Assembly: GCF_000800805.1 (NCBI RefSeq)
Contig: NZ_CP010070.1
Span: 868,001-932,000 of the forward strand
Reading direction: 5' to 3'
Origin: Candidatus Methanoplasma termitum
Lineage (GTDB): Archaea > Thermoplasmatota > Thermoplasmata > Methanomassiliicoccales > Methanomethylophilaceae
DNA length: 64,000 bases
Of the stretch, positions 13,134-47,056 are shown piece after piece. The position numbers and the translations under genes were made by a program. How positions within the stretch are numbered: the stretch's first letter is position 1; each line of letters starts with the position of its first letter. The notes below the pieces were generated by a model, which ran no database searches, was not told the DNA's origin, and saw only the letters and a program-made list of their open reading frames with translations.

Positions 13134-13563
13134 TCCCGGGGCGCAATTTATTATGGGAGTATTCTACAGATGGGCGTGGGGTGTCGAACAAGACTATACA
13201 AAATCGTTCGAATTACATAAATCATCGGCGGAGAAAGGGGATCCCTTTGCTCAGTATAAACTTGGCCTGTTATACATTTACAATTGGTCTGTTGGAATAC
13301 GGACAGAAAAAGGAATCGAAATGATATCTGCCGGAGGTTTAAAGACAGATGGTGCCGAAGGAATCAAATGGCTTAAAAAGTCTGCTGAAAACGGAGTAAC
13401 AAAAGCCCAATTCATGCTTGGACATTTTTATCAGTACGGAGGGTCTGTTGAAAAGAATGAAAAGGAAGCGGAAAAATGGTATCGTCTTGCCGCAGAGGGA
13501 GGAGACAGGGACGCTGAATCTCGGTTAAGGTCCCTAGAAAAAGGGAAGAAAAGGGGCGAATAA
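13134..13563 (+). pseudogene. Sel1-repeat protein, 5' end removed by the insertion sequence
   Basis: The open frame starts at the IS boundary with the middle of a Sel1 repeat (GAQFIMGVFYRWAWGVEQDY). More units follow: AEKGDPFAQYKLGLLYIYN, AENGVTKAQFMLGHFYQYG and AEGGDRDAESRLRSLE. Sel1 units are ~36-residue TPR-like helical hairpins used for protein contacts. The first ATG at 13153 lies inside a repeat, so a complete gene is unlikely. A related Sel1 N-terminus is present in the 25447-27180 protein. The missing 5' part is not at the other IS copy. Confidence 0.75.
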
Positions 13564-14497: not shown

Positions 14498-14703
14498 CGA
14501 TTTACAACCTTTGGTTACTTTCGGTTTCTAATTATTGCTATAAACTAACAAGAACGTCCCTAGGAATACCTGTGTTATGTGGGCAAGTTTATATGTCTGG
14601 GTGTCTCTTTTTCTAATCGATCTTTCTGTTCTCTTGTTAGCACTATAACATAGGATGATTGTTGTTTTTAATGGACCAGTTTCGGTGACCTCTCCTCCTA
14701 AAC

Positions 14704-14741
14704 TTTATAAGGCAAGATATCTTCATAGTAATATGTGGAGG
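14704..14741 (+). promoter_or_regulatory. Promoter and ribosome binding site of the cytosine methyltransferase
   Basis: A TATA box (TTTATAA, 14704-14710) is followed by a GGAGG Shine-Dalgarno at 14737-14741 and an ATG at 14751 with 9 nt spacing. This favours 14751 over the upstream in-frame ATG at 14655, which has no ribosome binding site. A second TATA-like TTTATAT lies at 14588-14594. Confidence 0.5.
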
Positions 14742-14750
14742 GATGTGTTG

Positions 14751-15896
14751 ATGCCAGCAGATGAGGTCTGTAATTCTAGTGTAGAGAAACAGACGGCGTC
14801 AATGGATACTTTTTCGATGGGGGAATCGTCCCCGAGAGTTAAGAAAAATGAAGGTGGGCCGAGACTGATTTCCTTGTTTTCCGGATGTGGGGGACTCGAT
14901 CTTGGCTTTGAGATGGCTGGATTCCAAAGGGTATGGGCAAATGATTTTGATCCAGATGCTCAAGCAGTCTACGAGAAAAACATTGGCGAGATAGATAAAA
15001 GGGACATATTGAGTGTGCCCGAAAGCGAAATCCCGGACGGCGACATACTCACGGCCGGTTTCCCATGTCAGCCGTTTTCAAATGCCGGAAAAAGGGAGGG
15101 CGTTCACGATTCGAGAGGGATGTTATATAAGGAATGTCTTCGGGTAATAAAAAGTAAGATGCCGAAAGTAATTGTTTTCGAGAATGTCAAAGGACTATTA
15201 TCGACAAAATATATCGATGGTCGCAACCTTGTCGATGTAATAATAGAAGACTTATCAACTATAAACGGAGTGGGATATAACGTCAAGCATTTGTTAATCA
15301 ATGCATCGGATTACGGCGTTCCTCAAAATAGACAAAGAGTTGTCTTCGTTGGCATTAGGAAGGATCTGAAAAAGGAATTTACATTTCCGGATAAACAAAA
15401 TAAAAACAGTAACCTAACGCTGAGGTATGTTTTAGATATCCCCGCGGGGGTCCCAAACCAAGTACACTGGAGCCTTTCTCCTCAAGCATCAGAGATGATT
15501 GAGTACATTCCAGAAGGCGGTTCATGGAAGGATGTGCCATATGAGCACCTGGCACCGCGGTTTAAGAAAATAAGAGATGACATGAAAAAGTACCGTTCCC
15601 CAAATTTTTATAGGCGTTTCTCCCGCGATGAAATAAATGGGACTATCACGGCCTCCGCCCAGCCAGAAAACTGTGGCATCATCCACCCCACTGAAAATAG
15701 AAGATATACAATTCGAGAGGTTGCGCGTATTCAGACATTCCCAGATAATTTCGTGTTTTTTGATGGCAGCGCGAAAGATGTTACTGCAATGTACAAGGTC
15801 ATTGGAAACGCCGTTCCTGTGATGCTAGCAAAAACTATTGCAACAGCGATTATGGAGCAGGTTTTCGCAGTGGGGGATACAGATGGACACAGATAA
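14751..15896 (+). CDS. DNA (cytosine-5) methyltransferase of a type II restriction-modification system
   Basis: All main C5-methyltransferase motifs are visible in order: motif I LFSGCGGLDLGF, motif IV GFPCQPFSNAG with the catalytic Cys, motif VI FENVKGLL, motif VIII QNRQRVVFVGI, the target-recognition region, motif IX RFSRDEINGTITASA, and motif X IGNAVPVMLAKTIA. The ATG at 14751 has a good ribosome binding site. The 3' end overlaps the next gene by 14 nt. A Vsr endonuclease at 18611 supports an m5C-type system. The recognition sequence cannot be told from sequence. Confidence 0.95.
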   Translation: MPADEVCNSSVEKQTASMDTFSMGESSPRVKKNEGGPRLISLFSGCGGLDLGFEMAGFQRVWANDFDPDAQAVYEKNIGEIDKRDILSVPESEIPDGDILTAGFPCQPFSNAGKREGVHDSRGMLYKECLRVIKSKMPKVIVFENVKGLLSTKYIDGRNLVDVIIEDLSTINGVGYNVKHLLINASDYGVPQNRQRVVFVGIRKDLKKEFTFPDKQNKNSNLTLRYVLDIPAGVPNQVHWSLSPQASEMIEYIPEGGSWKDVPYEHLAPRFKKIRDDMKKYRSPNFYRRFSRDEINGTITASAQPENCGIIHPTENRRYTIREVARIQTFPDNFVFFDGSAKDVTAMYKVIGNAVPVMLAKTIATAIMEQVFAVGDTDGHR

Positions 15897-18610: not shown

Positions 18611-19102
18611 TTGAACAGCCCCATACCCACGGCAACATCCGAATCAGTTTTGAAATCGATGAAATCTAATAAGGGGATTAATACTGGGCCAGAGTTATTG
18701 CTGCGCCAAGCCCTCAGATCTGCAGGTTACCCAGGGTATCGTGTTCACTGGAAGGTGCCTGGAAAACCAGATATTTCATACCCTGGGATGAAAATTGCCA
18801 TATTCGTAAATGGATGTTTCTGGCACCGGTGTCCTTATTGCAATATCCCCATACCTAAAACACATACTGATTATTGGATTGAAAAATTTGAAAGAAATAC
18901 CCAACGCGATTCTATAAATACTAAAGAACTTCAAAAAATGGGTTGGACGGTGCTTGTAGTGTGGGAATGCGAAATCAATGGAAAAATAGACGAAGTAGTC
19001 TCAAGGATTGCATGTAGCATTGAGCAACGGCGACTCTATTTTTGCTATCGACTAGTGTTTTTCATCAATGAAATTTGTAAAATCACTGCAAAAAGGTCTT
19101 AA
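18611..19102 (+). CDS. vsr: Very short patch repair (Vsr) endonuclease
   Basis: Vsr nicks DNA at T:G mismatches that arise when 5-methylcytosine deaminates, so it usually accompanies a C5 methyltransferase. Diagnostic stretches are NKGINTGPELLLRQAL, PGKPDISYPGMKIAIFVNG, CFWHRCPYC, the TDYWIEKFERNTQRD block and GWTVLVVWECEI, which together supply the catalytic Asp, His and zinc-binding Cys residues. I accept the TTG at 18611, which has AAAGGA upstream; ATG at 18659 would lose part of the family N-terminus. It is separated from the methyltransferase genes by three minus-strand core genes. Confidence 0.93.
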   Translation: MNSPIPTATSESVLKSMKSNKGINTGPELLLRQALRSAGYPGYRVHWKVPGKPDISYPGMKIAIFVNGCFWHRCPYCNIPIPKTHTDYWIEKFERNTQRDSINTKELQKMGWTVLVVWECEINGKIDEVVSRIACSIEQRRLYFCYRLVFFINEICKITAKRS

Positions 19103-19171
19103 TTAGGGAATATTGGTCAAGTATCGACTTTAAATGCAACAGCCACCTAATATGTAAGGGCCCCTGCACCA

Positions 19172-20191
19172 AACTGTGTTTCATAATTCGTTGGCCCGCT
19201 GACCGATGGTGATTAATTTTCAGAGGACCATCGTCCGGTGCTTGTGAGAAAGCAGGAGCCAGACGATGGCAGAGATGGGATGGGACAGACAGTATAATAG
19301 ACATTGGGATGAGTATAACCAAAGACTTGTCGAACGGGGAAGGATATTTTGGGACCTTTCATGGGTCCCTAAGCATCTGGATGAGATAGGTTCGAATGAA
19401 AAGAAACGAGGACGGCCGCGTTTGTACGGGGATGCTCTGATATCTTATGTTTCCAGGGTCAGGACGGTCACGGGCATCCCCTTCAGGATGCTGGAGGGTC
19501 TTTTCAAGCCCGTGTTCGATCTGATCGGGATAGAGGTGCCGAGCTATCCGACGCTTTGGAGGCGCTGTACCTCTCTGGAAGCGGCAGCCGGTATCAAGGC
19601 GACCGCGCGCAAGAGGATCGTTGCGGTCGACAGTACAGGGATAAAGGTCACCGTCAGGGGAGGATGGATGAGGGAGAAGTGGAAGGTGCACAAAGGATGG
19701 CTTAAACTTCACATTCTCTCTGATGTGGAGACGAACGAGATCCTCGCATTCGTGGCGACGGACGAACGATCAAGCGATGCCAAGCACCTGCTGGCACTTG
19801 TGGATGCGGCCTTGGCCGCAGGCCACGGGATAGCGAAGGTGCTTGCGGACGGGGCGTATGACACGAGGAAGAACTGGAATGGGATGAGGGAGAGGAAGAT
19901 AGAGTTCATAGCCCACATCAGGAAGAATGCTTCGACGACATCCAGAGGATGCACCGTGAGAAGCGCGCATGTACGGGAGAGGAACGCAATAGGCGAGGAC
20001 GAGTGGCGTAAGAGGTACGGCTATAACATGAGATGGAAAGTGGAATCGGTCTTCTCCGACCTCAAGAGGATGTTCGGAGAATCCGTTTCTTCGAAGACGT
20101 TCGAGAACATGGTGGCGGAGATCTCCAGGAGCATCGAGTGCTTTAATATGATGAAGGCGGCAGGTATGTGAATGAATTATGAAACACAGTT
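19172..20191 (+). mobile_element. IS5-family insertion sequence, copy 2
   Basis: Same length, terminal repeats and transposase as copy 1, in opposite orientation. The repeats are at 19172-19189 and 20174-20191. On its left, 19163-19171 (CCTGCACCA) is the reverse complement of the 9 bp left of copy 1. On its right it cuts into a helicase-like gene. No direct 9-bp duplication flanks this copy itself. Confidence 0.93.
19266..20171 (+). CDS. IS5-family DDE transposase, copy 2
   Basis: The 301-residue translation is identical to that at 12134-13039, with the DDE residues in VAVDSTG, LADGAYD and KVESVFSDL. Identity extends through the ORF and the flanking untranslated ends as far as I compared, which implies recent duplication or gene conversion. 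Confidence 0.93.
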   Translation: MAEMGWDRQYNRHWDEYNQRLVERGRIFWDLSWVPKHLDEIGSNEKKRGRPRLYGDALISYVSRVRTVTGIPFRMLEGLFKPVFDLIGIEVPSYPTLWRRCTSLEAAAGIKATARKRIVAVDSTGIKVTVRGGWMREKWKVHKGWLKLHILSDVETNEILAFVATDERSSDAKHLLALVDAALAAGHGIAKVLADGAYDTRKNWNGMRERKIEFIAHIRKNASTTSRGCTVRSAHVRERNAIGEDEWRKRYGYNMRWKVESVFSDLKRMFGESVSSKTFENMVAEISRSIECFNMMKAAGM

Positions 20192-27294: not shown

Positions 27295-28183
27295 ATGGGA
27301 AGTTCATCCGGAAAAAGAGAGAAAGTAGTGGTCGCCTGCACAGTGTTCGAAGTTCCGAAGGTCATCAGACCTATCATCGAGTACGAAGCATCGAAGGTGC
27401 ATCTGATCCATTATACAGACAAGAAAAATCCTGATGCGAAGATCTATCAGGAATTTTTTTGAAGAAGTTGTCTCTCAAATAAAGGAATATTCCGCCATTA
27501 AAGAAAAGCTCGGCAAACGTGTCGAGATCGTTGAACACGCAGATTACAGGACCAGCGATTTTCAAAAGATGCTGATGACCGTTCTGCGCATAATAGAAGA
27601 AGAGAAAGCTCTGAACAAAGAATCTGAGATCTACGTTAACATATCCTCCGGAACAGCAGAATACATCTCGGCCGCAACGATAGCGACAATGATGGCGGCT
27701 TCAAAGACCGAGGGGATCAGACTCTTCACCGTAGGAACTGAACCGCGGGGATATTCTACCTACGGAGAACAACAGGTCAAAGCATTGTACTATGAGAACG
27801 GCAGACCGGTCGGTCTGACAAAAATGGCAAGGGAGCCTCGGGAGGTCCCTATGTTCAAGGTATCTGTCCCGGATAAAGGTCTGGTCAAAGGGCTGAGAGA
27901 ATTCGGTACTTTCGATAAACCGGTCACCGCAAACACGGTCATCAATGTACTGAAAAAAAAGGATCTTCTTTCCGATGATGAAGATAACAAAAAGAAGAAC
28001 AGAGATCAGGCCGATGTGATGAGATTTAGACGTAACTTCCTGGACAAGTGGGTAGAGGAAGGATGGGTCGATAAGCGTGAAGGAAGCAACAAATATATGC
28101 TGACTGACGACGGGAAAATGATCATCGATACCTTCTATTTGGAAGATGAAGATACAGAGGATAATGCAAAGATCCGCAAGTGA
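27295..28183 (+). pseudogene. CARF/HTH-type regulator (DUF6293-like), frameshifted at a T7 run
   Basis: The gene opens MGSSSGKREKVVVACTVFEV at 27295 and stops at codon ~56 (QEFF, TGA). The next frame picks up exactly there (FEEVVSQIKEYSAIKEKLGK). Removing one T from the seven-T run at 27454-27460 would join both into ~296 residues. The N-terminal half looks like a Rossmann-type CARF sensor (YVNISSGTAEYISAATIATM), and the C-terminus is winged-helix-like (FLDKWVEEGWVDKREGSNKY). Such proteins regulate transcription. The break could be real, a slippage switch, or a sequencing error. Confidence 0.7.
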
Positions 28184-31012: not shown

Positions 31013-31690
31013 CTACCGCAACAGTAAAAGCAATGCGGCGCCGCCGGCCGCTATGTTGCCGCCGCCGACCCTGCCGATCGGTATCCCGGAAACCCCTTCG
31101 TAGATGTTGCCCTCTTTGTCCACTCTGCCGATCGGTATCCCTGATGTTCCCCTGTAGATGTTACCCTCTCTGTCTACCCCGCCTATAGGATTCTCGGAAG
31201 ATCCTTCGTAAACAATACCTGCCACCAGGTTGACCATGCCGACCGAGCACTGAGAGGACCAGTCGTAGATGACACCGCCCACATCGACCCTGCCTACCGG
31301 ATCCAAAGACGGCCCTTCATATATGATCCCCGACTGCATACCCTCGAACTTCTGGAACAACAGAAGCAATGCTGCGCCGCCCGCGAAGATCTCGTTGCCG
31401 CTGACGCTGCCGGCACGGCCGCAGCCGTGGGATCCGCCGTAAACGGTGCCGTTCGCATAGACACGGCCGACACATAACTCATTCCATGACGAGTCCCTCT
31501 CGTAAACAATTCCTTCATTATCGACCCTGCCGACGCAGTTCTCGTCCCATAATGATCCTCCCTCATAAACTGTGCCGTCTGTGTCGACCCGGCCAATGCG
31601 GTTCTCGTCCCATGATGTTCTCTTCTCATAAACTGTGCCGTCTGTGTCGATCCTGCCGATGCAAGAGGACCTCACATAAATATCTCCCAT
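31013..31690 (-). CDS. Repeat protein resembling 5-fold beta-flower proteins
   Basis: About ten ~20-residue units of the form (I/V)GR(V/I)D-x2-G-x-(V/I)YEG-x-S, for example IGRIDTDGTVYEKRTSWDEN and IGRVDKEGNIYEGVSGIP. These look like the units of bacterial 5-fold beta-flower proteins. Two hydrophobic blocks with AGGAALLLL, one central and one at the C-terminus, split the repeats into two sets and could pack together or insert in a membrane. There is no signal peptide. The role is unknown. A TATA-like CTTTATAG lies about 80 nt upstream. Confidence 0.65.
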   Translation of the reverse strand: MGDIYVRSSCIGRIDTDGTVYEKRTSWDENRIGRVDTDGTVYEGGSLWDENCVGRVDNEGIVYERDSSWNELCVGRVYANGTVYGGSHGCGRAGSVSGNEIFAGGAALLLLFQKFEGMQSGIIYEGPSLDPVGRVDVGGVIYDWSSQCSVGMVNLVAGIVYEGSSENPIGGVDREGNIYRGTSGIPIGRVDKEGNIYEGVSGIPIGRVGGGNIAAGGAALLLLLR

Positions 31691-34506: not shown

Positions 34507-34637
34507 GGTAGAGATTTACTTGTATGGTAAGGATTAGTAATAAAACCTTTGTGGGATGCACACAGAAGCACACTTTTTCACGGGCGATCGGGACTGCGCC
34601 CGACTATGTGCTTTATAATTCAATTGCCGATTATAAT

Positions 34638-35024
34638 ATGATGAGAACATTGTTGGCATATGACGGCAGGCAACAAAGAGTTTTAGACTATGCTATAGAC
34701 CACGCTCTTGCCTATAAAAGCACCCTTTTCATAATATCGGCTCTGGCCACGAAGAATGCCACAGAAATAGATGCGGGGCTCCCTAAGCTTAAAGGATCCC
34801 TCGAAGCGGCAAAACAGCGTGCGTTAGATAAAGGAGTCGATGTTCACATCATGACGGGAGCGGGGGATCCGGCGACAGAGATAGTCGCTGCCGCAGAACG
34901 GATCGGAGCGGATACCATAATTGTCGGCCACCGAGATAAGACCGTGCTTGACCGCGTGGTTTTGGGAAGTATCTCCGAGAACGTGCTGCGCAACGCCCGC
35001 TGCACTGTCATTTTTGTTCTGTAA
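34638..35024 (+). CDS. Universal stress protein (UspA family)
   Basis: The start is ATG 34638 or 34641 (MRTLLAYDG); the longer frame from 34524 has no family similarity. Family marks are LLAYDGRQQRVLDYAIDHA, GDPATEIVAAAERIGADTIIVG and the nucleotide-binding GHRDKTVLDRVVLGSISENVL ending in CTVIFVL. It is 128 residues and complete. Its 3' end overlaps the convergent hydrogenase-like small subunit gene by 17 nt. Confidence 0.9.
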   Translation: MMRTLLAYDGRQQRVLDYAIDHALAYKSTLFIISALATKNATEIDAGLPKLKGSLEAAKQRALDKGVDVHIMTGAGDPATEIVAAAERIGADTIIVGHRDKTVLDRVVLGSISENVLRNARCTVIFVL

Positions 35025-35772
35025 GACCAAAGGCAGTAAGCATCGCACGAATGAGCCTGTCCGGGGCCGGTGGACATCCGGGGACATACATGTCAACATC
35101 GACCGTACCGCCGATACCCTCGCCTACTACCTCTCCTTTTGAGAATAACCCGCCTGAGATCGCGCAAGTGCCCATCGCTATGATCACTTTCGGCTCCGGC
35201 GTAGCTGCCGCCGCCTTCATCAATGCATCATACATGTTCTTTGTCAGCGGCCCCGTTATCAGCAGCACGTCGGCGTGCCTCGGCGATGCTACGATCTTTA
35301 TGCCGAACCTTTCTGAGTCATAGAACTGATTGGACAGAGCGTTCACCTCCACTTCGCATCCGTTGCAGGACCCCGTGTCAACTTCTCTGATAAATACAGA
35401 CCTCCCGACGGCCTTCAGTTTCTTTGCGTCTAAGGTATCCTTGTTCTTCACCGGAGGTGTGTTCTTTGTGAATATCAGGCCTTCTCTCGAAACGGCATAA
35501 TCCGGTGCATCGACGGGAGATATAGCTTCCTTTGTGCATGCCCTCCTACAATCCCAACAGAACAGGCATTTGCCGAGATCTATTGTCCATTCGCCGCTCG
35601 TATCTATCGCATTCGACGGGCAGACCTTCGAACAGACCCCGCATTCATCGCATTCCACTCCCGCAAGCGGCATCTTTTGCGCTCTGCCGAATATCACATC
35701 GATGCTTTCCGTCGGAGCCCTGTTCTGTGTGACGATATTTTTAAGCGCTTCTTGTAACAATCTTCTTTTCAT
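35008..35772 (-). CDS. Hydrogenase-like small subunit fused to dicluster ferredoxin (HyfH+HyfI/NuoI+NuoB-like)
   Basis: Residues ~35-90 hold two 4Fe-4S motifs, CDECGVCSKVCPSNAI and CLFCWDCRRACTKEAI. Residues ~130-254 are a NuoB-like domain with SCNGCEVEV, GTCAISGG and VPGCPPAP, giving the four ligands of the proximal cluster. In Hyf/Hyc complexes these two parts are usually separate genes, so this is a fusion. It is the last gene of the six-gene complex and lies 9 nt after the large subunit. Confidence 0.88.
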   Translation of the reverse strand: MKRRLLQEALKNIVTQNRAPTESIDVIFGRAQKMPLAGVECDECGVCSKVCPSNAIDTSGEWTIDLGKCLFCWDCRRACTKEAISPVDAPDYAVSREGLIFTKNTPPVKNKDTLDAKKLKAVGRSVFIREVDTGSCNGCEVEVNALSNQFYDSERFGIKIVASPRHADVLLITGPLTKNMYDALMKAAAATPEPKVIIAMGTCAISGGLFSKGEVVGEGIGGTVDVDMYVPGCPPAPDRLIRAMLTAFGLTEQK

Positions 35773-35781
35773 TTCATCACC

Positions 35782-37251
35782 TCACAGGTCATTTCCGCTG
35801 TATGACAGGTCGAAGCTCTTGTTGATCAGCGGAAAATCCGGCACTATGTTGCCTAAGACCGCAAGCTCCAACGCCGGCCAGTTGGGGAACGAAGCGTCCT
35901 TTATCTTATATCTCCATATCTTCCCGTCGACGATATGCACGCAGTGGATCGATTCTCCGCGGGGAGACTCCACCGCTCCGATCGAGAATCCGTCCTTGAT
36001 CTTTATTTTGCTTGAGATCGGCCCGTCCTCGATATTGTCCAGACACTGCATGATTATGCTTATCGCCTCCGATATCTCGCTGGTCTTGACCCTGAATCTC
36101 GCATACACATCCCCTCTGGTATGTGTGGCCACTTTCATACCGATCCTGTCATAAACCTCATATGGGTGGCTCTTTCTGACGTCGTACTCTATCCCGCTCC
36201 CTCTTGCGATCGGCCCGACGGCTCTCAGTTCGACGGCGTCATGCGAGTTCAGTACGCCTGTCGTTTCGGCACGGTCCATGAACGAAGCGGATGATGTGGC
36301 CATGTCGAAGAAATCATCGACATCGAGTTTCATACGCATCAGTTCCTTCTCGATCAGGCTTGCCTTCTCTTCATCGATATCTACGCATACTCCGCCTAGA
36401 CACAGGGTCCCCCAGAGCAGCCTGTGTCCGGTTATTCTTTCATTAAGGCGATGCATGCGTTCTTTCAGCATATACCCCTTTGCCGCGGGCACCGAGAGTG
36501 CGGTATCCAACACTATACCGCTGATGCCTCCGAACAGATTGTGTATCCTCTCCAGCTCCGCATAGATCGTGCGGATGTATCTCGCCCTCAACGGTATCTC
36601 GGCATCCCCTTCCATCGCCTGCAGGTACGCCAGGGAGTGTGCTATCGCATTGTCCCCGGATATCCTCTCTATGAGTCTGGTCATATCTTTGTTAGCGGGC
36701 ACTTCCAGCATCTTCTCGATACCTCTGTGCGAATATCCGAGATAGGTACGCATCGTCAGTATCGGTTCGCCTGCGACGCTGAATCTGAAGTGCCCGGGCC
36801 CTATGACCCCTGCATGTATCGGCCCTACCGGTATCTCGAATAGCCCTTCGCCCTTTATCACATTGCGCGGGATGGGAGTCGAACGTATACCGGTCGGCTC
36901 TTTCGCGCCCTTTTGCAAAGGATATGCTCCTTCCTGAATGCTCCTGAGTTTCAGAGGGCGCATGTCTTGATTACCCAGCGGGACCACGTTGCTCATCTCG
37001 AACATCTCCCTCTCATATATTCCGGCTGCGGGGAATTCATCCGATAATGATGTGTAACTGTTCTCTTTCAGCACAGAGGTCAGCCTCGTGACCTCGTCCT
37101 GCGACACCAATATCGTCTCCAACGTCCTTTCGAACTCTTCGGAACCCTCTTTGACATACATGCACGCTATGCCGAACCCAAGCTCCGTGTGGAACCTCAC
37201 ATAATCTTTCAGATCCTCTATCGACGCTTCGATCTCGCGTGTGATCCTCAC
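35782..37251 (-). CDS. Hydrogenase-like large subunit lacking all Ni-Fe ligands (HyfG/NuoCD-like, Ehr type)
   Basis: A NuoC-like N-terminus (~100 residues) is fused to a NuoD/HyfG-like domain (IPVGPIHAGVIGPGHFRF, YLGYSHRGIEKML). In [NiFe] hydrogenases the next motif is RxCGxC; here it is RISGDNAIAH (residues 196-205), with Ser and Asn for both Cys. The C-terminal DPCxxC is DLSYSG (residues 481-486). Hydrogen chemistry is therefore not possible by the known mechanism. This matches energy-converting hydrogenase-related (Ehr) proteins. It overlaps the ND4-like gene by 4 nt. Confidence 0.9.
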   Translation of the reverse strand: MRITREIEASIEDLKDYVRFHTELGFGIACMYVKEGSEEFERTLETILVSQDEVTRLTSVLKENSYTSLSDEFPAAGIYEREMFEMSNVVPLGNQDMRPLKLRSIQEGAYPLQKGAKEPTGIRSTPIPRNVIKGEGLFEIPVGPIHAGVIGPGHFRFSVAGEPILTMRTYLGYSHRGIEKMLEVPANKDMTRLIERISGDNAIAHSLAYLQAMEGDAEIPLRARYIRTIYAELERIHNLFGGISGIVLDTALSVPAAKGYMLKERMHRLNERITGHRLLWGTLCLGGVCVDIDEEKASLIEKELMRMKLDVDDFFDMATSSASFMDRAETTGVLNSHDAVELRAVGPIARGSGIEYDVRKSHPYEVYDRIGMKVATHTRGDVYARFRVKTSEISEAISIIMQCLDNIEDGPISSKIKIKDGFSIGAVESPRGESIHCVHIVDGKIWRYKIKDASFPNWPALELAVLGNIVPDFPLINKSFDLSYSGNDL

Positions 37252-38714
37252 AATATACCTCCCGTGACCGCATCGGCTATCGATTCCAATGCATCTCTCA
37301 TTTGTTCCGGCATGAATAGTCCCAGAAGGATTATCGCAAGCAGCAACAGCACCATGGGAAGTGCGCGTGAAATGCCTTTCAGTTCCTTTACTTCTTTTTT
37401 CGTATCGCCGCTGAGCATCGGAAGCACGTTCCTCAGGAATCCTGCGAATACCACTATGATCAGCACCACCATTACCGCTGCCACAATGTACATACCGTCG
37501 CTGAACGCTCCGGCCAATATGGATATCTCTCCTATGAACACAGCGAATGGCGGGACGCCCAAAATGGCAAGAGTGCCTGCGGTCATCATGAAGGCCGTGA
37601 ACGGCATCTTTTCCCTGAGGCCTTTTATGTCAGCCATATTCGACGTGCCGTATCCCTGTATCACGTTGCCTGCCGCAAAGAAAACGAATGTTTTTGTCAA
37701 AGAATGAGCGATGACATGGAACAATGCTCCGAAAACAGCCAGCGGAGTGCCTATCCCGAATCCGATCATCATTATCCCCATGTGCTCTATGGTGGAATAA
37801 GCCAGCATACGCTTGATGTCCTTCGATATCAGTATGAACGCCGCGGCCACCGCCATTGATATCAGACCGAAGCCTATCATCAGGCTTGACGAGAATCCGG
37901 GAACCGCGACATTCAATATCATCTGGAACCTCAGTATCGTATACATTGCACAGTTAAGCAGTACAGCAGATAGCATAGCGCTGATAGGCGTCGGGGACTG
38001 GCTGTGTGCATCGGGGAGCCATGTGTGCATCGGCACCAGCCCCATCTTGGTCCCGAAGCCGACCAGTACAAAAACGAACGCTATCTTGAGCAGGGACGGG
38101 TCGAGGTCCGATGCCACGCTGTAGAGGATCGGCCAGTTCAGCGCGCCGGGATCATTCCCCAATACAGCCATCGACGAAGCGTAGATGAGGATTATCCCCA
38201 TTAGTGCCAGAGTGATGCCCACGGAGCATATCATAAGGTATTTCCATGCCGCTTCCGTGGAGGATTCCTTCCTGTAGAAACCGACAAGGAACGCCGAGAC
38301 CAGAGTGGTCGCTTCTATTGCGATCCACATAATGCCGAACGAGCTGACCACACACACGGTCAGCATAACCGCCACGAAAGTGTGGAAAAGGACCGAATAT
38401 ATTCGTTCATCCTTGGATGTTATCCTGCCTTCGTCCTTGTCCAACTTGATGTATCCGGCGGAATAGATGGATGCCATGAAGCCCACCAATGCGATCAATA
38501 TCAGGAACAATGCAGAGAGCCCGTCCACATACCACATGCTGTACTCTGTCGTCTTGCCGGTGAACGCATCGATGCACATCGGGACCGAGGCAACAAGCAA
38601 CGCCAGCGATCCGATTATGGATACCATGGATCTTGTCCTTGCCCACGGGATCGCTGCGCACACCAATGCTGTGGCCACCGGGATCGCAAGAATGATCTCT
38701 ACCGTCAGGCTCAA
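37248..38714 (-). CDS. Membrane proton/ion-pump subunit (HyfF/NuoN-like)
   Basis: A 488-residue polytopic protein with about 14 hydrophobic helices. The central antiporter-type region has FGTKMGLVPMHTWLPDAHSQ and ISAMLSAVLLNCAMY, then RMLAYSTIEHMGIMMIG and IAHSLTKTFVFFAAG, all typical of ND2/4/5-family subunits that translocate H+ or Na+. WIAIEATTLVSAFLVGFY contains the conserved transmembrane Glu. It overlaps both neighbours by 4 nt. Confidence 0.92.
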   Translation of the reverse strand: MSLTVEIILAIPVATALVCAAIPWARTRSMVSIIGSLALLVASVPMCIDAFTGKTTEYSMWYVDGLSALFLILIALVGFMASIYSAGYIKLDKDEGRITSKDERIYSVLFHTFVAVMLTVCVVSSFGIMWIAIEATTLVSAFLVGFYRKESSTEAAWKYLMICSVGITLALMGIILIYASSMAVLGNDPGALNWPILYSVASDLDPSLLKIAFVFVLVGFGTKMGLVPMHTWLPDAHSQSPTPISAMLSAVLLNCAMYTILRFQMILNVAVPGFSSSLMIGFGLISMAVAAAFILISKDIKRMLAYSTIEHMGIMMIGFGIGTPLAVFGALFHVIAHSLTKTFVFFAAGNVIQGYGTSNMADIKGLREKMPFTAFMMTAGTLAILGVPPFAVFIGEISILAGAFSDGMYIVAAVMVVLIIVVFAGFLRNVLPMLSGDTKKEVKELKGISRALPMVLLLLAIILLGLFMPEQMRDALESIADAVTGGIL

Positions 38715-39376
38715 TCTTTCAACCTCCTCATGAATCCCGTGTCAATGGAGTTGAATGTCTGGCTAATGCGGAACATGAAAATGCCCACTATCACCGCGAC
38801 CATGAGCACGTCGAAGAATATCCCTATCTCCACGAGCAGCGGCATGCCGTATGAGATCGATAGGGCACCGAGGAACAGCCCGTTCTCCATCATCAGCAGG
38901 CCTATCGCTTCCGTTATCGCCTTGCGTCTGGTCACCATCATGAACAATCCTATCAGTATCACTGACAAAGATATCGCAAAACAGTTCTTGGTTATCGTAT
39001 CGAATGGTTCCGAAATGGGTGCGGAAATGAAATAAGATATCAGTATAAGACATGCGGATATCAGCAGGGATGTGGGTATGCCTATCGAGGAATCCACTTC
39101 TCTTCCCGACTTTATCCTTTGCGAGGCGTATTTGAGGAACCAAGGTATGAGTATGACCTTTACGACGAGGGTTATCCCTCCGACGATGAAGATATTCGTG
39201 TGGCCCGTGCTTATTCCGATTACGACCGCCAGCGCCACAAGGAAAAGCGATTGCGCGGCAAATGCATTCATCAGCTGATTCATCCTTGTGGTGGACATTG
39301 CCAGCAAAGAAAGCAGCAGCATCCCTACCGCGCAGATGTCTATCAGGTTTTGAGTCAGTGTCGTTTCCATTTTCAT
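38711..39376 (-). CDS. Membrane subunit (HyfE-like)
   Basis: 221 residues with about six to seven transmembrane helices. IMMVTRRKAITEAIGLLMMENGLFLGAL resembles the HyfE/NuoK-related family (conserved ...NGL motif), and LVEIGIFFDVLMVAVIVGIFMFRI follows. In Hyf-type complexes this subunit sits between the pump modules. It overlaps the HyfF-like gene by 4 nt and follows the HyfC-like gene by 3 nt. Confidence 0.85.
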   Translation of the reverse strand: MKMETTLTQNLIDICAVGMLLLSLLAMSTTRMNQLMNAFAAQSLFLVALAVVIGISTGHTNIFIVGGITLVVKVILIPWFLKYASQRIKSGREVDSSIGIPTSLLISACLILISYFISAPISEPFDTITKNCFAISLSVILIGLFMMVTRRKAITEAIGLLMMENGLFLGALSISYGMPLLVEIGIFFDVLMVAVIVGIFMFRISQTFNSIDTGFMRRLKD

Positions 39377-39379
39377 ACC

Positions 39380-40321
39380 TCACAGAATGTACAGCGATAT
39401 CAACGCCAGAAGGGACAATACGAATGATGCGGTCAACAGGTTAGGCAGGCGGAACAGTCTGAATTTAGCTATGTACGATTCGATGACCGCAATAATAACA
39501 ACGATTATCAGCAGTTTGGCCATTATTGCGGCGAACCCTATTATCAGCGACATTACATCGGCGTCGGTCGCTATTCCCCATGGAAAGAACATCGATCCCA
39601 GTATGCTCATGAATATCGTGAGCCTCAGCATGGAAGAGAATTCCATGAGGCCGAGACCGCGGCCGGAATACTCTAAGAGCATCCCTTCATGCACCATCGT
39701 CAGTTCCAGATGTGTTGCGGGGTTATCGAATGGGATGCGGGCGTTCTCCGCCATGAGCGTTATGAAGAAAGAGGATGTTGCAAGTATCAGCGTGGGGGTC
39801 AGCGCTGCGATCCCCATATCGATTATGGCGGGGGGTATGTCGCCTATCGCCGTGCCCGCTTTGGTAAGACCGGCCAATGCCATCACCGACAACAATAAGG
39901 CCGGTTCTATCAGGACGGACATCATCATCTCTCTGCTCGATCCCATCCCTCCGAATACCGACCCTCCCTCCAATCCGCCGAGTACCATCATGAAACGATA
40001 CATAGTGAATATGTAGACCATGGCGATGAGATCGCCGTAAGGCGCCAGCGTATCCACGAACATGAAGGGGATCATCAACGCAAGCAAGAGCATGCTGCTT
40101 AGACACACATATGGGACCGCACGGAACAGCCAAGTCGAATGCCTTGAGACGACCTCGTCCTTTTTGAACAATTTGATAAGGTCGCGATACGGCTGGAAAA
40201 CGCTGTTCCCTTTCCTGTGCTGCATGTATGCCTTGAGCTTTCTTATTATCCCGGTAAGCAGCGGCGAGATCAATATCATTATAACTGCCTGAAGGGCCGA
40301 GAAAATGATATCCTGGATCAC
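39380..40321 (-). CDS. Membrane anchor subunit (HyfC/HycD/NuoH-like)
   Basis: A 313-residue polytopic protein of the ND1 family: LTGIIRKLKAYMQHRKGNSVFQPYRDLIKLF in the first loop, then ARIPFDNPATHLELTMVHEGMLLEYSGRGL, the region that contacts the hydrophilic arm in complex I and group 4 hydrogenases. It is expected to dock the large and small subunits. It overlaps the ND5-like gene by 4 nt. Confidence 0.93.
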   Translation of the reverse strand: MIQDIIFSALQAVIMILISPLLTGIIRKLKAYMQHRKGNSVFQPYRDLIKLFKKDEVVSRHSTWLFRAVPYVCLSSMLLLALMIPFMFVDTLAPYGDLIAMVYIFTMYRFMMVLGGLEGGSVFGGMGSSREMMMSVLIEPALLLSVMALAGLTKAGTAIGDIPPAIIDMGIAALTPTLILATSSFFITLMAENARIPFDNPATHLELTMVHEGMLLEYSGRGLGLMEFSSMLRLTIFMSILGSMFFPWGIATDADVMSLIIGFAAIMAKLLIIVVIIAVIESYIAKFRLFRLPNLLTASFVLSLLALISLYIL

Positions 40322-42297
40322 AGCAGCCCCACCACCAGAAGGAGGACCACCAGAGTGATCAATATGTATCCGAGATACGTCTGTACGTTGCCGTTCTGCA
40401 TTCTGCCTATAGTTTTTGCGATCCTTGTCGCATATCTTCCTATTGGCTCATACAGATATGTTACGAACGGTTCCACATAACGTATCGAGAAATTCTTCGA
40501 ATTCGTTTCGTCCTCATCGTCCTGGATATCGATGATGTCCCCGTACAACGGGTGGAACACTTTCACCAGCGGCCCCGTGAACCCTACAGATGAATACTGC
40601 ATATGCTCTTCGAGCCGGGTGCCGCAGTCCCAGGTCTCCTCTTCCCTGACGTCCTTTTTGCGTATTCTCAGGACAAGGTAAACTGCGACTGTTATGCATA
40701 CCAATATGGCGGCCAAGACCGGCAGGTTCAGAGTACCGAGCAACGGTCCGCTGTATTCTTCGGAGAAGGGGGATGATAAGAGATCCCCTACCGCATTTCC
40801 GAGACGCTTCATGATATCGATGGCGAATATCCCCATTACTATGCACAGGCCGGCAAGTGCGGCCATAGGGACGAATGACGTCTTGCCTATCTTCTTGGGA
40901 TTCGCGACAGATTTCGATCTGGGCCTTCCCAAGAATATGAATCCGTAAAGGCGGGCATACGAGACCGCCGCCATCATTCCGCTGATGCCGATGACGGCCA
41001 CTCCGAGAGGGAGTATCAGCTCTATACCGTTCACCCCGGCGACCTCTCCCGCCATGATCGATTGTATCATCATCCACTCGCTTGCGAACCCGTTCAAAGG
41101 AGGTATGGCCGCCATTGACAGGACCGCAATGAGCGCAATGAAAGAGAACACAGGCAGAACATTGGCCAGCCCTCCCATCTTTTCAATAGCTGTCTCACCC
41201 GTGGAATCCTCTACGGTACCGACCGTCATGAAGGCCAGGGCTTTGAAGACCGAATGGTTTATGGTATGGAGCAGCCCCGCGATAAGGACGATCGTCACGA
41301 GATCTATTGATCCTCCCGTCCCGCAAAGCATCGCAAAGGACAGACAAAGCATCACCAATGCCATATTCTCAACGCTTGAGTAAGCCAATATACGTTTGGG
41401 TTCGGTTTGGATAAGGGATTCCAAAGCCCCCCATATCGCAGTCATCGAGGATAACACCATGAGCAGGATCGCAAGAACATACATGTCCTCGCCCACTCCG
41501 AGATATCTGAATATCCCTTTCAGCAATATGAGAACAGCAACGTTGGAGGACACCGTGGAAAGCATGGCAGACGTGTATGTCGGCGCTTTTGCATAAAGAT
41601 CGGACATCCAGACGTGGAATGGGACCAATCCGAGCTTTGTTCCGAACCCCAGGAACAACAGTGCCGCCACAACGCACGACATGAGAGCGCCCATATCTGA
41701 ACCGATACCGTTCCAATCGGACAGAATATCTGTTCCGGCGAACGTGAACATTATCAAAAATGCCGACACGATCATCAGGCCGCCGAAGTGCGTTATGACC
41801 AAGAACTTCCATCTGGCTCCGTCCCCTCTCTTGCTGTATGCCATCAGGAAAGTTGTGAGTGTGATCATCTCCCACGATATCAATAACAAAAGGACATTGT
41901 TCGCACACATTGCAAGTACGCAGGACAAGAACAGTGCGCACATGAGCGCATAATACCCCGATCTGTCGGGTGCAGACCCGGAACGGACCATGTGGAGGAT
42001 GATCATGAAGAATACAACAGAGGAAACGGTGATCATCATCGAGGTGATCCCGTCTATCAGAACAGAGTATGACCCCCATGCGGAGTGTATCGGTAAAGTG
42101 TATTCTATCGTTCCATACCACAAAAACATCGGATATGCCGATATGCCGGCGGCGCAGGATATTAAACAAAATGCGGTCGATGTGTATTTTGCGATCCTAT
42201 GCCGGACAATGCCTATCAGGAGTCCGGCAAAAACAGGCACGAATAAAATTGACAGATAGACCTCAATAAACTGCGAAAACACAACCGGTCTCCTCAT
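40318..42297 (-). CDS. Membrane proton/ion-pump subunit (HyfB/NuoL-like)
   Basis: About 659 residues with roughly 16 hydrophobic helices and the antiporter core: GFGTKLGLVPFHVWMSDLYAKAP, TSAMLSTVSSNVAVLILLKG, RILAYSSVENMALVMLC and HTINHSVFKALAFMTVG. The C-terminal ~100 residues include a soluble loop (EEHMQYSSVGFTGPLVKVF) and a last helix, as in HyfB. I start at ATG 42297; a TTG two codons upstream is open. It heads the six-gene operon, divergent from the EamA gene. Confidence 0.92.
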   Translation of the reverse strand: MRRPVVFSQFIEVYLSILFVPVFAGLLIGIVRHRIAKYTSTAFCLISCAAGISAYPMFLWYGTIEYTLPIHSAWGSYSVLIDGITSMMITVSSVVFFMIILHMVRSGSAPDRSGYYALMCALFLSCVLAMCANNVLLLLISWEMITLTTFLMAYSKRGDGARWKFLVITHFGGLMIVSAFLIMFTFAGTDILSDWNGIGSDMGALMSCVVAALLFLGFGTKLGLVPFHVWMSDLYAKAPTYTSAMLSTVSSNVAVLILLKGIFRYLGVGEDMYVLAILLMVLSSMTAIWGALESLIQTEPKRILAYSSVENMALVMLCLSFAMLCGTGGSIDLVTIVLIAGLLHTINHSVFKALAFMTVGTVEDSTGETAIEKMGGLANVLPVFSFIALIAVLSMAAIPPLNGFASEWMMIQSIMAGEVAGVNGIELILPLGVAVIGISGMMAAVSYARLYGFIFLGRPRSKSVANPKKIGKTSFVPMAALAGLCIVMGIFAIDIMKRLGNAVGDLLSSPFSEEYSGPLLGTLNLPVLAAILVCITVAVYLVLRIRKKDVREEETWDCGTRLEEHMQYSSVGFTGPLVKVFHPLYGDIIDIQDDEDETNSKNFSIRYVEPFVTYLYEPIGRYATRIAKTIGRMQNGNVQTYLGYILITLVVLLLVVGLL

Positions 42298-42481
42298 TTG
42301 CAATATTATAGGTACTTTTCAATTTTACCAATTGACAATCTCTACTGTTTATTAAAGCCTTTTTACAACGAAGTTGCTCTTCAGAAACCTTCAATATTTT
42401 ATTACGATTCAACGGCCCTGCACACAGAGCATAGCAAATACCTTTTAATCCGCTTATCAATAGATAATAAGGAACTCAGCC

Positions 42482-43389: not shown

Positions 43390-44235
43390 TTAGAGTTTTA
43401 CGGGCACAAGGTGCGCCGAGAGTCCGAGTTCTTTCTCGCTCATTCCCATTGCGATGCCGAAGAGCTGCGATAGGTGGATGACGGGGATGTTGAACCCGAG
43501 GTCCTTCTCGGACGAGTCGAACTGAAGGTGGCAGAACGGACAGACATCGACAATGAATTTTGCGCCTGATTCTTTCATGTTCTCCAGGTTCGTCTTGGTG
43601 AACTCTTTTGCTACGTCTCCGAAAGCGGCCCTGACTCCTCCTCCCGCTCCGCAACAGAGGTATTTCTGTTTCCTCGGAACGCTGACGCATCCGGTCGCCT
43701 CGACAAGCTGATCCAGCATGTGGGGGTTCTCTGGGTCGTCGATCTTCTTTATGTCGCTGGGTTTCAGGAAGTGGCATCCGTAGAATGTCGCTATCTTGTA
43801 GTCGAGAGGTTTCGTTACCTTTGCCTTTATTTTGTCGATTCCAACCTCTCTGAACATGACCTCGGCCATGTGATAGACCTTTGTGGTCCCTTTGTACTCC
43901 ATTCCGATCTCTTTGAGGAACTTGTTCGCTTTTGCGCGCACATCGGCGTGGTTGTTGAGCTCGTGTGCGGCCTCAAAGAGGGATCCGTAGCAACCATTGC
44001 AGATCGTAATTATCGGAAGTCCCTGTTTCTCGGCAAGAGCAAGGTTCCTTGCGGCGGCGGCGAGCCATGTGTCCTTGCTGAAGGATTTTATCACACCCGG
44101 TGCCGGGCAGCAGCTTGCGTCTTCAAGTTCGACGAGTTCGATGCCAAGTTTTGCGGCAACTACTCTTGTGGACTTCTCCAGTCCGGGGTATCTGAGCGGC
44201 GCTATGCAACCCAGGAAAAATGCGTATTTTGTCAT
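43390..44235 (-). CDS. hdrB: CoB-CoM heterodisulfide reductase subunit B
   Basis: Two CCG domains: near residues 40-85 DASCCPAP and CNGCYGSL, and later YGCHFLKP with KYLCCGAGGG and CPFCHLQF. These bind the noncubane 4Fe-4S clusters where heterodisulfide CoM-S-S-CoB is reduced. The start MTKYAFFLGCIAPLRYPG at 44235 matches the family; an ATG three codons upstream is also open. Its 5' end is next to hdrC. No hdrA or mvh gene is in this window. Confidence 0.95.
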   Translation of the reverse strand: MTKYAFFLGCIAPLRYPGLEKSTRVVAAKLGIELVELEDASCCPAPGVIKSFSKDTWLAAAARNLALAEKQGLPIITICNGCYGSLFEAAHELNNHADVRAKANKFLKEIGMEYKGTTKVYHMAEVMFREVGIDKIKAKVTKPLDYKIATFYGCHFLKPSDIKKIDDPENPHMLDQLVEATGCVSVPRKQKYLCCGAGGGVRAAFGDVAKEFTKTNLENMKESGAKFIVDVCPFCHLQFDSSEKDLGFNIPVIHLSQLFGIAMGMSEKELGLSAHLVPVKL

Positions 44236-44240
44236 TGTGA

Positions 44241-44747
44241 TCACTCCACGATCTTGTTGAATCCGGTCGCATTCATCAGCTTAACGAGGTCTTCCATCGC
44301 TTTCTTGTTTGCGAGCACGGTCGGGGGGGTCTTCGCGAGGCCAAGGTCGACCCTGAGCTTCTCTATTTTGTCCTGGACTGTGACTGTGTGTCCTAGTTTG
44401 TAGAGGTTTGTTGCCGTTTTCTTGTGGTTCTCATAAATATGGCTTTCTGCGACCGCCATGTTCCTGAGTGCGGTAATGATGTCTACTATAGGAACGGCGC
44501 GGGGGCATCTCTCGACGCATGTGTAGCATGTTGTGCAGTCCCAAAGCTCCTCGCTGCTAAGTATTTGCTCTTTGAGGCCGAGCTGTGTCTGTCTCATGAG
44601 TTTTCTTACTCTGTATGATGTGCGCCTTCCCGAGGGGCAGCTTGCTGTGCAGGTTCCACATTGGAAGCACATCTTTACGTCTGCGCCTCCGTTGTCTGCA
44701 ACTTGTTTCTCAAACTCCGGATTTGGTTTTATCTCCGTAATAATCAC
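44241..44747 (-). CDS. hdrC: CoB-CoM heterodisulfide reductase subunit C
   Basis: 168 residues with two [4Fe-4S] motifs, CFQCGTCTASCPSGRR and CTTCYTCVERCPRAVP, relaying electrons to HdrB. The start is GTG 44747 (MIITEIKPNPEFEKQV). A TATA box lies only about 29 nt upstream, so the message may be leaderless. It overlaps the longest possible hdrB frame by 4 nt and is surely co-transcribed with it. Confidence 0.95.
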   Translation of the reverse strand: MIITEIKPNPEFEKQVADNGGADVKMCFQCGTCTASCPSGRRTSYRVRKLMRQTQLGLKEQILSSEELWDCTTCYTCVERCPRAVPIVDIITALRNMAVAESHIYENHKKTATNLYKLGHTVTVQDKIEKLRVDLGLAKTPPTVLANKKAMEDLVKLMNATGFNKIVE

Positions 44748-45799: not shown

Positions 45800-45949
45800 A
45801 GGAGACTGCCCAAGACATAAATTGTGGCCTGCGCCTCTGTGTTTGCTTACAACGACAAAGAGCACAGGTCATGGATCATATGGGCTGGGCAGGATAAAAA
45901 CCCCTTCTTTAGACAGTGCTCTTTCTCTTGTCAGCGGGAGAAAAAGAAT

Positions 45950-47056
45950 ATGAAAACAGCGATTGGCATGGATGTCCATGCAAAGTTCTGTTCCGCCTAT
46001 GCCGTTTATGCGGGCATGGGGGAAACACGGGAAAGGCACGAGAAGTTCCTGGATTCATTCAATAAAGAGTTCTGGAAATTCCCTGCCGACGGAGATGGAA
46101 TGAAGAAGATGGCGGCGTTCCTTTCGAAGCACGAATGCCATGTCCTGATAGAGAATTCGACGAAATCTCACGAGATATACTGGATGCTGAAGGGCCTAGG
46201 TATGAACGTGACCGTTGCTCAGGCGGTGGACCTGTACCGGATAACGAGATCGGTGAAGAAGACAGACCGCAATGATTCCATCGAACTGGCGGCATATATG
46301 AGGAGAAGGCTGAACGGCGAGAATGAGTTCGCCGCTTGCTTCATCCCTTCTCCGGAATGGATGACCAAGCGGGAGATGTGCAGAGGAGTGTACAACGAAA
46401 GGATATATCTCAAAGAGGCCAGGCAGAGGATCAGAGCGCACCTGCTTCTCCACGGCATCAGTTTGTCAAAGGAATACGATGACATTCTGTCCGTCAAGGC
46501 CGTTCGGGAGATGCAGGAGCACAAGGACCCTTATCTGCTGATGCAGATAAAGTTCGCCTTGGATGCCAAATCCAGAGTAAGGTTCGTTGAGAAGGCGATA
46601 GCCCAGATGTTCTCCGGGAACCGCATGTATGAATTGATCCTTTCCATCCCCGGAGTAGGGATTGTGCCCGCAGCGTATCTGACGTCCCTGATCGTGGACA
46701 TCGGAAGATTCGGCAAGGTCACGCAATTCACCGCGTCATTCGGTGTTGTGCCGGGAAAGAGGGACTCGGCCGACCACAGTCCTGACTGTCCGACCACCCA
46801 CAGAGGGGACGAGGTAGCAAGGGTAATGCTTAAGCGCTGTGCGTTCTCGCATATCCAGAATGTCGAGGATTCGGTGGTCACAGAGATGTATCGCCGACTG
46901 GTGAAGAGAGGTAAAGTGAAGAACGAGGCGCTGACCGCAGCATCGAGGAAGCTGCTGACCGTGATATGGTCGGTGTTGAAGAACAACGCACCTTACACAG
47001 TCGACCCCGAACTGCTGAAGCGTGCAAGAGAAACGGAGGATGCCGAAGAGGACTGA
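45950..47056 (+). CDS. IS110-family DEDD transposase
   Basis: From ATG 45950 (MKTAIGMDVHAKFCSAYAVY), preceded by GGGAG. The RuvC-like N-terminal domain shows IGMDVHAK (first Asp), LIENSTKSHEIYW, and TDRNDSIELAAYMRR. The C-terminal Transposase_20 domain has ILSIPGVGIVPAAYLTSLI, FTASFGVVPGKRDSADHS and GDEVARVMLKRCAF. At 368 residues it appears complete and may be functional. The open frame upstream to 45824 overlaps the predicted structured RNA and is not family-like. Confidence 0.92.
   Translation: MKTAIGMDVHAKFCSAYAVYAGMGETRERHEKFLDSFNKEFWKFPADGDGMKKMAAFLSKHECHVLIENSTKSHEIYWMLKGLGMNVTVAQAVDLYRITRSVKKTDRNDSIELAAYMRRRLNGENEFAACFIPSPEWMTKREMCRGVYNERIYLKEARQRIRAHLLLHGISLSKEYDDILSVKAVREMQEHKDPYLLMQIKFALDAKSRVRFVEKAIAQMFSGNRMYELILSIPGVGIVPAAYLTSLIVDIGRFGKVTQFTASFGVVPGKRDSADHSPDCPTTHRGDEVARVMLKRCAFSHIQNVEDSVVTEMYRRLVKRGKVKNEALTAASRKLLTVIWSVLKNNAPYTVDPELLKRARETEDAEED

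Follow-up and report, generated by a model that had tools for sequence, protein, structure and literature searches.

Energy-converting hydrogenase-related (Ehr) complexes have been reported in Geobacter sulfurreducens (GSU0739-0745), comammox Nitrospira, ammonia-oxidising archaea, Margulisbacteria, and MALP (PMC7894505, PMC10284858, PMC10432482, PMC6349859, PMC6147122), the last being a metagenome-assembled genome of the Methanomassiliicoccales in which an ehr complex of unknown function was described in 2018 (PMC6147122). Aerobes, nitrifiers, metal reducers, and methanogens are all among the organisms that carry Ehr. Here, we analyzed the ehr operon (42303-35008, minus strand) of Candidatus Methanoplasma termitum, a member of the same order whose genome is a single contig of 1,488,669 bases. 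The operon lies in a stretch of 64,000 nucleotides (NZ_CP010070.1, positions 868,001 to 932,000), hereafter called the window, and positions are those of the window. Judged by its sequence, the encoded complex is of the Ehr type, a kind already described and uncharacterised; among the new points is the breadth of Ehr in the order, which extends rather than founds the MALP report. We consider it moderately probable that Ehr is a ferredoxin-linked ion pump, associated with a universal stress protein (Usp), that would neither make nor use H2.

The operon consists of six contiguous open reading frames (ORFs), overlapping or nearly so, and their assignment with Pfam and NCBIfam bore out the first-pass annotation, which had described six genes for a full membrane arm and a soluble arm. 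The membrane arm comprises a HyfB-like subunit (40318..42303), the first of two NuoL/M/N-type ion pumps (hydrogenase 4 subunit B, E=5e-115), a HyfC/NuoH (ND1)-like subunit (39380..40321; Pfam NADHdh, E=4e-41), a HyfE-like subunit (38711..39376; NCBIfam hydrogenase 4 membrane subunit, E=7e-32), and a HyfF-like subunit (37248..38714), the second pump (hydrogenase 4 subunit F, E=7e-140), all on the minus strand. The soluble arm, on the same strand, comprises a HyfG/HycE-like large subunit with fused NuoC and NuoD parts and no Ni ligands (35782..37251), and a fused HyfH/HyfI protein (35008..35772), in which Pfam recognized a 2x[4Fe-4S] ferredoxin domain and a NuoB-type small subunit. The position 42297, first given as the end of the operon, stands as an ATG codon, which is probably the start of the HyfB-like subunit, but the ORF of 661 amino acids reaches 42303 through a TTG codon. 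No HyfA, HyfD, or maturation gene was found in the operon. Both the window's family and genus g15 have the HyfH/HyfI fusion, and HyfH and HyfI are separate genes, overlapping or adjacent, in the genera of loci L071, L072, L073, L074, and L100.

The large subunit aligned with HycE of E. coli (PDB 7z0s_E) at E=1e-54, with RVCGICG of HycE opposite RISGDNA and DPCYSC opposite DLSYSG. All four Ni ligands are therefore replaced (C by S198, C by N201, C by S483, and C by G486), as had been read from the Ser/Asn (RISGDN) and Ser/Gly (DLSYSG) residues at the two Cys pairs. The L1 motif ERISGDN (residues 195-201; 36649..36669, minus strand) replaces ERxCGxC, and the L2 motif NKSFDLSYSGND (residues 477-488; 35788..35823, minus strand) replaces xxSxDPCxxCxD, so that both CxxC ligand pairs of active group 4 [NiFe] hydrogenases are missing. 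The C-terminal extension of [NiFe] hydrogenases is cut off upon nickel insertion; the large subunit of the window ends one residue past the L2 motif, and this maturation extension is absent. Some 30 other species of the same family, as well as other families in the order, likewise have no such extension, and their motifs are fixed as ERxSGD[N/T/S] and NKSxxLSY[S/A]GND. A single Cys is occasionally present at the Ni positions of these relatives, but never the full set of four. Eighteen large-subunit positions, including S198, D200, I150, N477, K478, S483, and G486, were fixed or nearly so in 46 Ehr sequences and essentially absent from 14 hydrogenases.

An active [NiFe] hydrogenase whose ligands only appear to be lost, through sequencing or assembly errors, was considered and rejected. 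Because the substitutions are conserved over dozens of species, chance and sequencing error are excluded, and no Cys residue is restored at the Ni sites. The fixation of the motifs across a large multi-species clade and the missing maturation extension both speak against such an enzyme, we found nothing in support of a sequencing error, and its probability is practically negligible.

The fold and the phylogeny of the large subunit are in keeping with an Ehr-type complex. An AlphaFold model of the large subunit alone (pLDDT 87.7, poor at the cavity stretches 144-156 and 484-489) gave HycE (7z0s_E) as the top PDB match in a fold search, with a TM score of 0.89. In a maximum-likelihood tree of 68 large subunits, the 51 Ehr-type rows formed one clade (100/100) on a long stem; the placement of two long-branch rows (L054 and L084) is unreliable. 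Its sister group (97/98) contains HycE and HyfG together with two Thermoplasmatota hydrogenases that are intact, and Ech, Mbh, Fpo-like, and NuoD sequences fall outside Ehr and Hyc/Hyf. The window sequence groups with its own family (99/100) inside the Ehr clade, in which sequences from plasmids of Rhodococcus, Paraburkholderia, Azospirillum, and Rhizobium are also nested; such plasmid-borne homologues from bacteria, which share the motifs, were used in place of the Ehr complexes named in the literature, such as Geobacter GSU0739-45. The locus thus combines the absence of Ni cysteines, NuoL/M/N-, NuoH-, and HyfE-like subunits with a small subunit in one operon, and a clade of its own. Motif loss, gene content and order, fold, and phylogeny all support the initial assignment to Ehr, and the tree, proposed as a check on whether the sequence belongs to active Ech or Hyf clades, placed it outside both.

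The occurrence of Ehr in this lineage, which had been singled out as needing a test, was confirmed and is widespread in the order, with MALP as the one prior report (PMC6147122). With a threshold of E below 1e-80, ehr was detected in 58 of the 147 genomes of the order, divided between 29 of the 45 genomes outside the window's family (families f2 and f3) and 29 of the 102 genomes within it (31 with two further fragmentary matches), and these counts are lower bounds, as the genomes are incomplete. The simplest reading is that ehr was present near the root of the order and was then repeatedly lost in the window's family.

The iron-sulfur ligands of the soluble arm have been retained. The proximal [4Fe-4S] ligands of the small subunit (C136xxC139, C203, and C233) and the 2x[4Fe-4S] domain are all present, as first noted for the proximal ligands and the dicluster ferredoxin, and all Methanomassiliicoccales loci examined keep the ferredoxin domain and the four-Cys proximal cluster. 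The small-subunit CxxC spacing is of the HycG/MbhJ type and not the tandem CC found at N2 in complex I. The position of complex I H38 is occupied by I150 in 46 of 46 Ehr sequences and D86/Y87 fall in the SGD motif, so that neither the quinone His38/Tyr87 pair nor the tandem Cys of complex I and Fpo was found. Since the Ni ligands are replaced and I150 stands at His38, hydrogen and classical quinone chemistry are both unsupported; we consider protons excluded as the acceptor and a quinone unlikely. A quinone- or methanophenazine-type reductase would be in keeping with the shared fold and subunit plan and the two ion pumps of complex I and Fpo, but the missing H38/Y87 equivalents and N2 tandem Cys make it very improbable. 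Moreover, methanophenazine is believed to be missing from members of this order (PMC5011839), although aerobic bacteria and these methanogens share one cavity signature.

A nickel-free precedent with a known activity is the MBS of Pyrococcus, a solved and assayed relative of Mbh that is likewise without complex I H38/Y87 and whose remaining Ni-type cysteines are dispensable for catalysis (PMC7684303). An MBS-like sulfane or polysulfide reductase, in which the proximal cluster itself would reduce an S-S bond in the empty cavity, could be proposed on these grounds. However, MBS is defined by a three-Cys proximal cluster in which a shorter loop of the small subunit leaves one Fe with no Cys ligand (PMC7684303), a feature that it needs, whereas Ehr has four Cys with hydrogenase spacing. 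Moreover, the MBS cavity is hydrophobic, whereas that of Ehr has S198, D200, N477, K478, S483, Y484, and D488, and we regard such a reductase as quite unlikely. At the position of Mbh E21, a glutamate that matters for proton reduction (PMC7684303), most Ehr sequences have E and the window's genus has G151.

In the membrane arm, both antiporter-like subunits retain the equivalents of E. coli NuoM E144, K234, and E407, Glu and Lys residues on which pumping by complex I depends (E145, K223, and E409 in the HyfB-like subunit; E134, K223, and E396 in the HyfF-like subunit). E164 and E183 of the HyfE-like subunit are conserved, and HyfC E139 and D199 are the kept equivalents of NuoH E157 and D213. 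The HyfC-like subunit also carries an Ehr-diagnostic loop, DNPATHLELTMVHE (residues 199-212; 39686..39727, minus strand), with two His and a three-residue insertion. Its form DNPxTHLELTM[V/I]HE hardly varies among the Ehr of archaea and bacteria and differs from the sequence of the hydrogenases, Ech, and complex I examined; the site is the position of the acidic NuoH loop of complex I and reads EAExEL--- in hydrogenases and complex I. The three-loop cluster described for MBS (PMC7684303) was the basis for locating the ND1-type loop, and because this loop faces the catalytic chamber in that description, the HyfC loop likely does so as well and likely has a specific, conserved task there. In the HyfF-like subunit of Rhodococcus (L052 8370-9890), the pump residues are changed by alignment from E to L, K to A, and E to M, and one of the two pumps of this locus may be inactive.

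A gene encoding a Usp (34524..35024, plus strand; Pfam Usp, E=3e-21) is convergent with the operon and overlaps its last gene by 17 bp. A convergent Usp gene was found in 30 of 30 other Methanomassiliicoccales loci, with stop codons mostly overlapping or at most 22 bp apart, and in 4 further loci, giving 34 of 34 readable loci altogether, whereas the other flanking genes are conserved in just a fraction of the ehr loci. The window's genome has only two Usp genes. Within the window's family, 30 of 31 genomes with ehr have a close Usp, as do 23 of 71 genomes without it; when genus g9, which has a related Usp elsewhere, was excluded, the counts were 24 of 25 and 3 of 46 (Fisher p=1e-14). In the sole ehr-positive genome without a close Usp, a contig ends inside ehr. 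These distributions suggest that Usp and ehr were gained or lost together. The ATP-binding motif G2xG9xG[S/T] is intact in most Usp of f2 and f3, and its second Gly is changed in most of the window's family. Usp is probably a dedicated partner of Ehr, acting as a nucleotide- or stress-sensing regulator. We found no paper that pairs Ehr or a hydrogenase-related complex with a Usp, which is weak evidence of novelty as most subscription papers were not covered. Among bacteria, the linkage is partial, with a Usp near ehr on plasmids of Mycobacterium branderi, Paraburkholderia, and Variovorax and not beside others, and it was rejected as a general feature of bacterial ehr loci.

A second neighbor bears on the electron acceptor, the least certain part of the mechanism. 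In 10 of the 11 sufficiently long loci of f2 and f3, an hdrD-like gene is divergent upstream of ehr, usually together with a ferritin-like gene, and its product is 54% identical to the HdrD-like protein encoded at 1.43 Mb in the window's genome. The Usp genes of f3 are followed by an Ech operon whose cysteines are intact. In the cultured species M. luminyensis, HdrD is WP_019178460 and EchA1 is WP_019178471 (PMC4153887, PMC7374477), with exactly ten consecutive accession numbers between them, a gap that would fit a block of a ferritin-like gene, seven ehr genes, and two Usp genes, as in locus L074. In the current model, the partner of HdrD is the Fpo-like complex (PMC7374477), and the hdrD gene of the window's genome is not near the Fpo-like genes. 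The gene neighborhood suggests that HdrD has Ehr as another partner, in addition to or in place of that complex, at least in f2 and f3, and bears on the accepted but unproven view that these methanogens use HdrD together with the Fpo-like complex. HdrD and the heterodisulfide are the best lead for the acceptor, albeit a tentative one that we hold to be less likely than not. An HdrC/HdrB pair with strong NCBIfam matches (43390-44747) lies upstream of ehr on the same strand; a link of this pair to ehr was considered and dropped, as the pairing was not conserved at other loci of the window's family.

In the mechanism that we favor, reduced ferredoxin would hand its electrons to the 2x[4Fe-4S] domain, from which they would reach the small subunit's proximal [4Fe-4S] cluster and then exit into the large subunit's [NiFe] cavity, now empty. 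Through the cavity and the Ehr-specific HyfC loop, this flow would be coupled to the HyfB- and HyfF-like subunits, which would translocate ions, and the adjacent Usp would act as a dedicated regulator. The first-pass annotation had likewise suggested ferredoxin-driven ion transport to an acceptor other than protons, which is compatible with the anatomy of the complex. Electron flow may also run in reverse, an ion gradient driving ferredoxin reduction from some donor for biosynthesis. Group 4 complexes are reversible according to the literature, anabolic roles of Ech and Ehb have been proposed, and a second ferredoxin-oxidising complex would be redundant in a genome that already has an Fpo-like complex. 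However, no donor was identified and the cavity has no known donor site, and we consider this direction unlikely.

Several observations weigh against a ferredoxin-linked pump regulated by Usp and coupled to HdrD. The hdrD gene of the window's genome lies about 0.5 Mb from ehr, and HdrD has been tabulated in species without any reported Ehr complex (PMC4153887), so that the HdrD-Ehr pairing cannot be obligatory. The adjacency of Usp and ehr allows one deletion to remove both, which inflates their co-occurrence; their long-term linkage amid shuffled neighbors is for this reason the stronger argument. Bacterial Ehr, such as that of Paraburkholderia, has no ferredoxin domain, and ferredoxin is thus not a universal donor. 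The proximal-cluster cysteines are lost from the small subunits of three Ehr-like operons that are otherwise intact, on plasmids of Allomeiothermus silvanus (L053 11269-12147) and Mycobacterium branderi (L054 11522-12313) and in the archaeal genome G108 (L076 10319-10837), and electron transfer through the proximal cluster is thus not essential to what Ehr conserves. No reaction or biochemistry for any Ehr was found in the literature.

Because the Fe-S ligands and the ferredoxin domain are lost in some relatives, the strongest selection acts on the cavity, the loop, and the pumps rather than on the electron chain, and the head may gate transport rather than catalyse. An ion transporter with a head that no longer does catalytic redox work and only gates transport would accommodate the G108 and Allomeiothermus operons, in which the L2 signature and the HyfC loop are retained along with almost all of the pump residues, as well as the Usp linkage. 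It would be odd, however, for all examined Methanomassiliicoccales loci to keep an unused proximal cluster and ferredoxin domain, and we find this explanation doubtful. In a broader and equally doubtful version, Ehr would be a hydrogenase-derived gated ion transporter or antiporter, defined by the remodelled cavity (SGD, NKSxxLSYxG), the two-His HyfC loop, and the pumps, with optional Fe-S clusters; a Usp that binds nucleotides would control it, as would its redox state or some bound ligand. Tied to HdrD in Methanomassiliicoccales, it could be a second ferredoxin:heterodisulfide coupling site. The genomic links to Usp and hdrD make the acceptor question of the ferredoxin-linked pump testable, and these two neighbors, together with the HyfC loop and the lost quinone His/Tyr, go beyond what had first been noted for this locus.

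Elsewhere in the window, two identical inverted copies of a DDE transposase element (12114-13134 and 19171-20191, arms of 1021 bp) flank genes encoding a C5-cytosine methyltransferase (14655-15896) and a Vsr endonuclease (18611-19102), resembling a composite element bearing a restriction-modification island; two more near-identical copies of the transposase gene occur in the genome. The ORF at 27434-28183 has an HFX_2341-like N-terminus and a winged-helix C-terminus, with weak CARF (Csm6) similarity, and that at 31013-31690 consists of imperfect repeats, such as GRVDTDGTVYE, with a weak Pfam match to a 5-fold beta-flower protein. Upstream of ehr, and separated from it by a few genes, is an IS110-family transposase (45824-47056).

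Compared with known systems, the complex shares with the Ehr of the literature, compared by description only, a group 4 hydrogenase-like character, NuoL-like, HyfE-like, large, and small subunits, and the absence of CxxC Ni motifs, but here the ferredoxin domain is fused to the small subunit, the 3' end of the operon is firmly linked to Usp, and hdrD is divergent in the sister families. E. coli Hyf/Hyc, the sister clade, matches it in subunit types, in the gene order B-C-E-F-G-(H)-I, in fold, and in proximal-cluster spacing, but keeps CGIC...DPCxxC and the C-terminal extension and is without the THLELTMxHE loop. The MBS (Mbx) of Pyrococcus is similarly a nickel-free Mbh relative coupled to ion pumping; it has an Mrp-type membrane arm and keeps two of the four Ni-type cysteines and a three-Cys proximal cluster, whereas Ehr keeps none of the four and has a four-Cys cluster. 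Finally, the genome's own Fpo-like complex (G000:C1:1285842-1286900; locus L078) is also a complex I relative, lacking the F420 module, but its large subunit is of the complex I type, it has the tandem Cys, and it is remote from Ehr in the tree.

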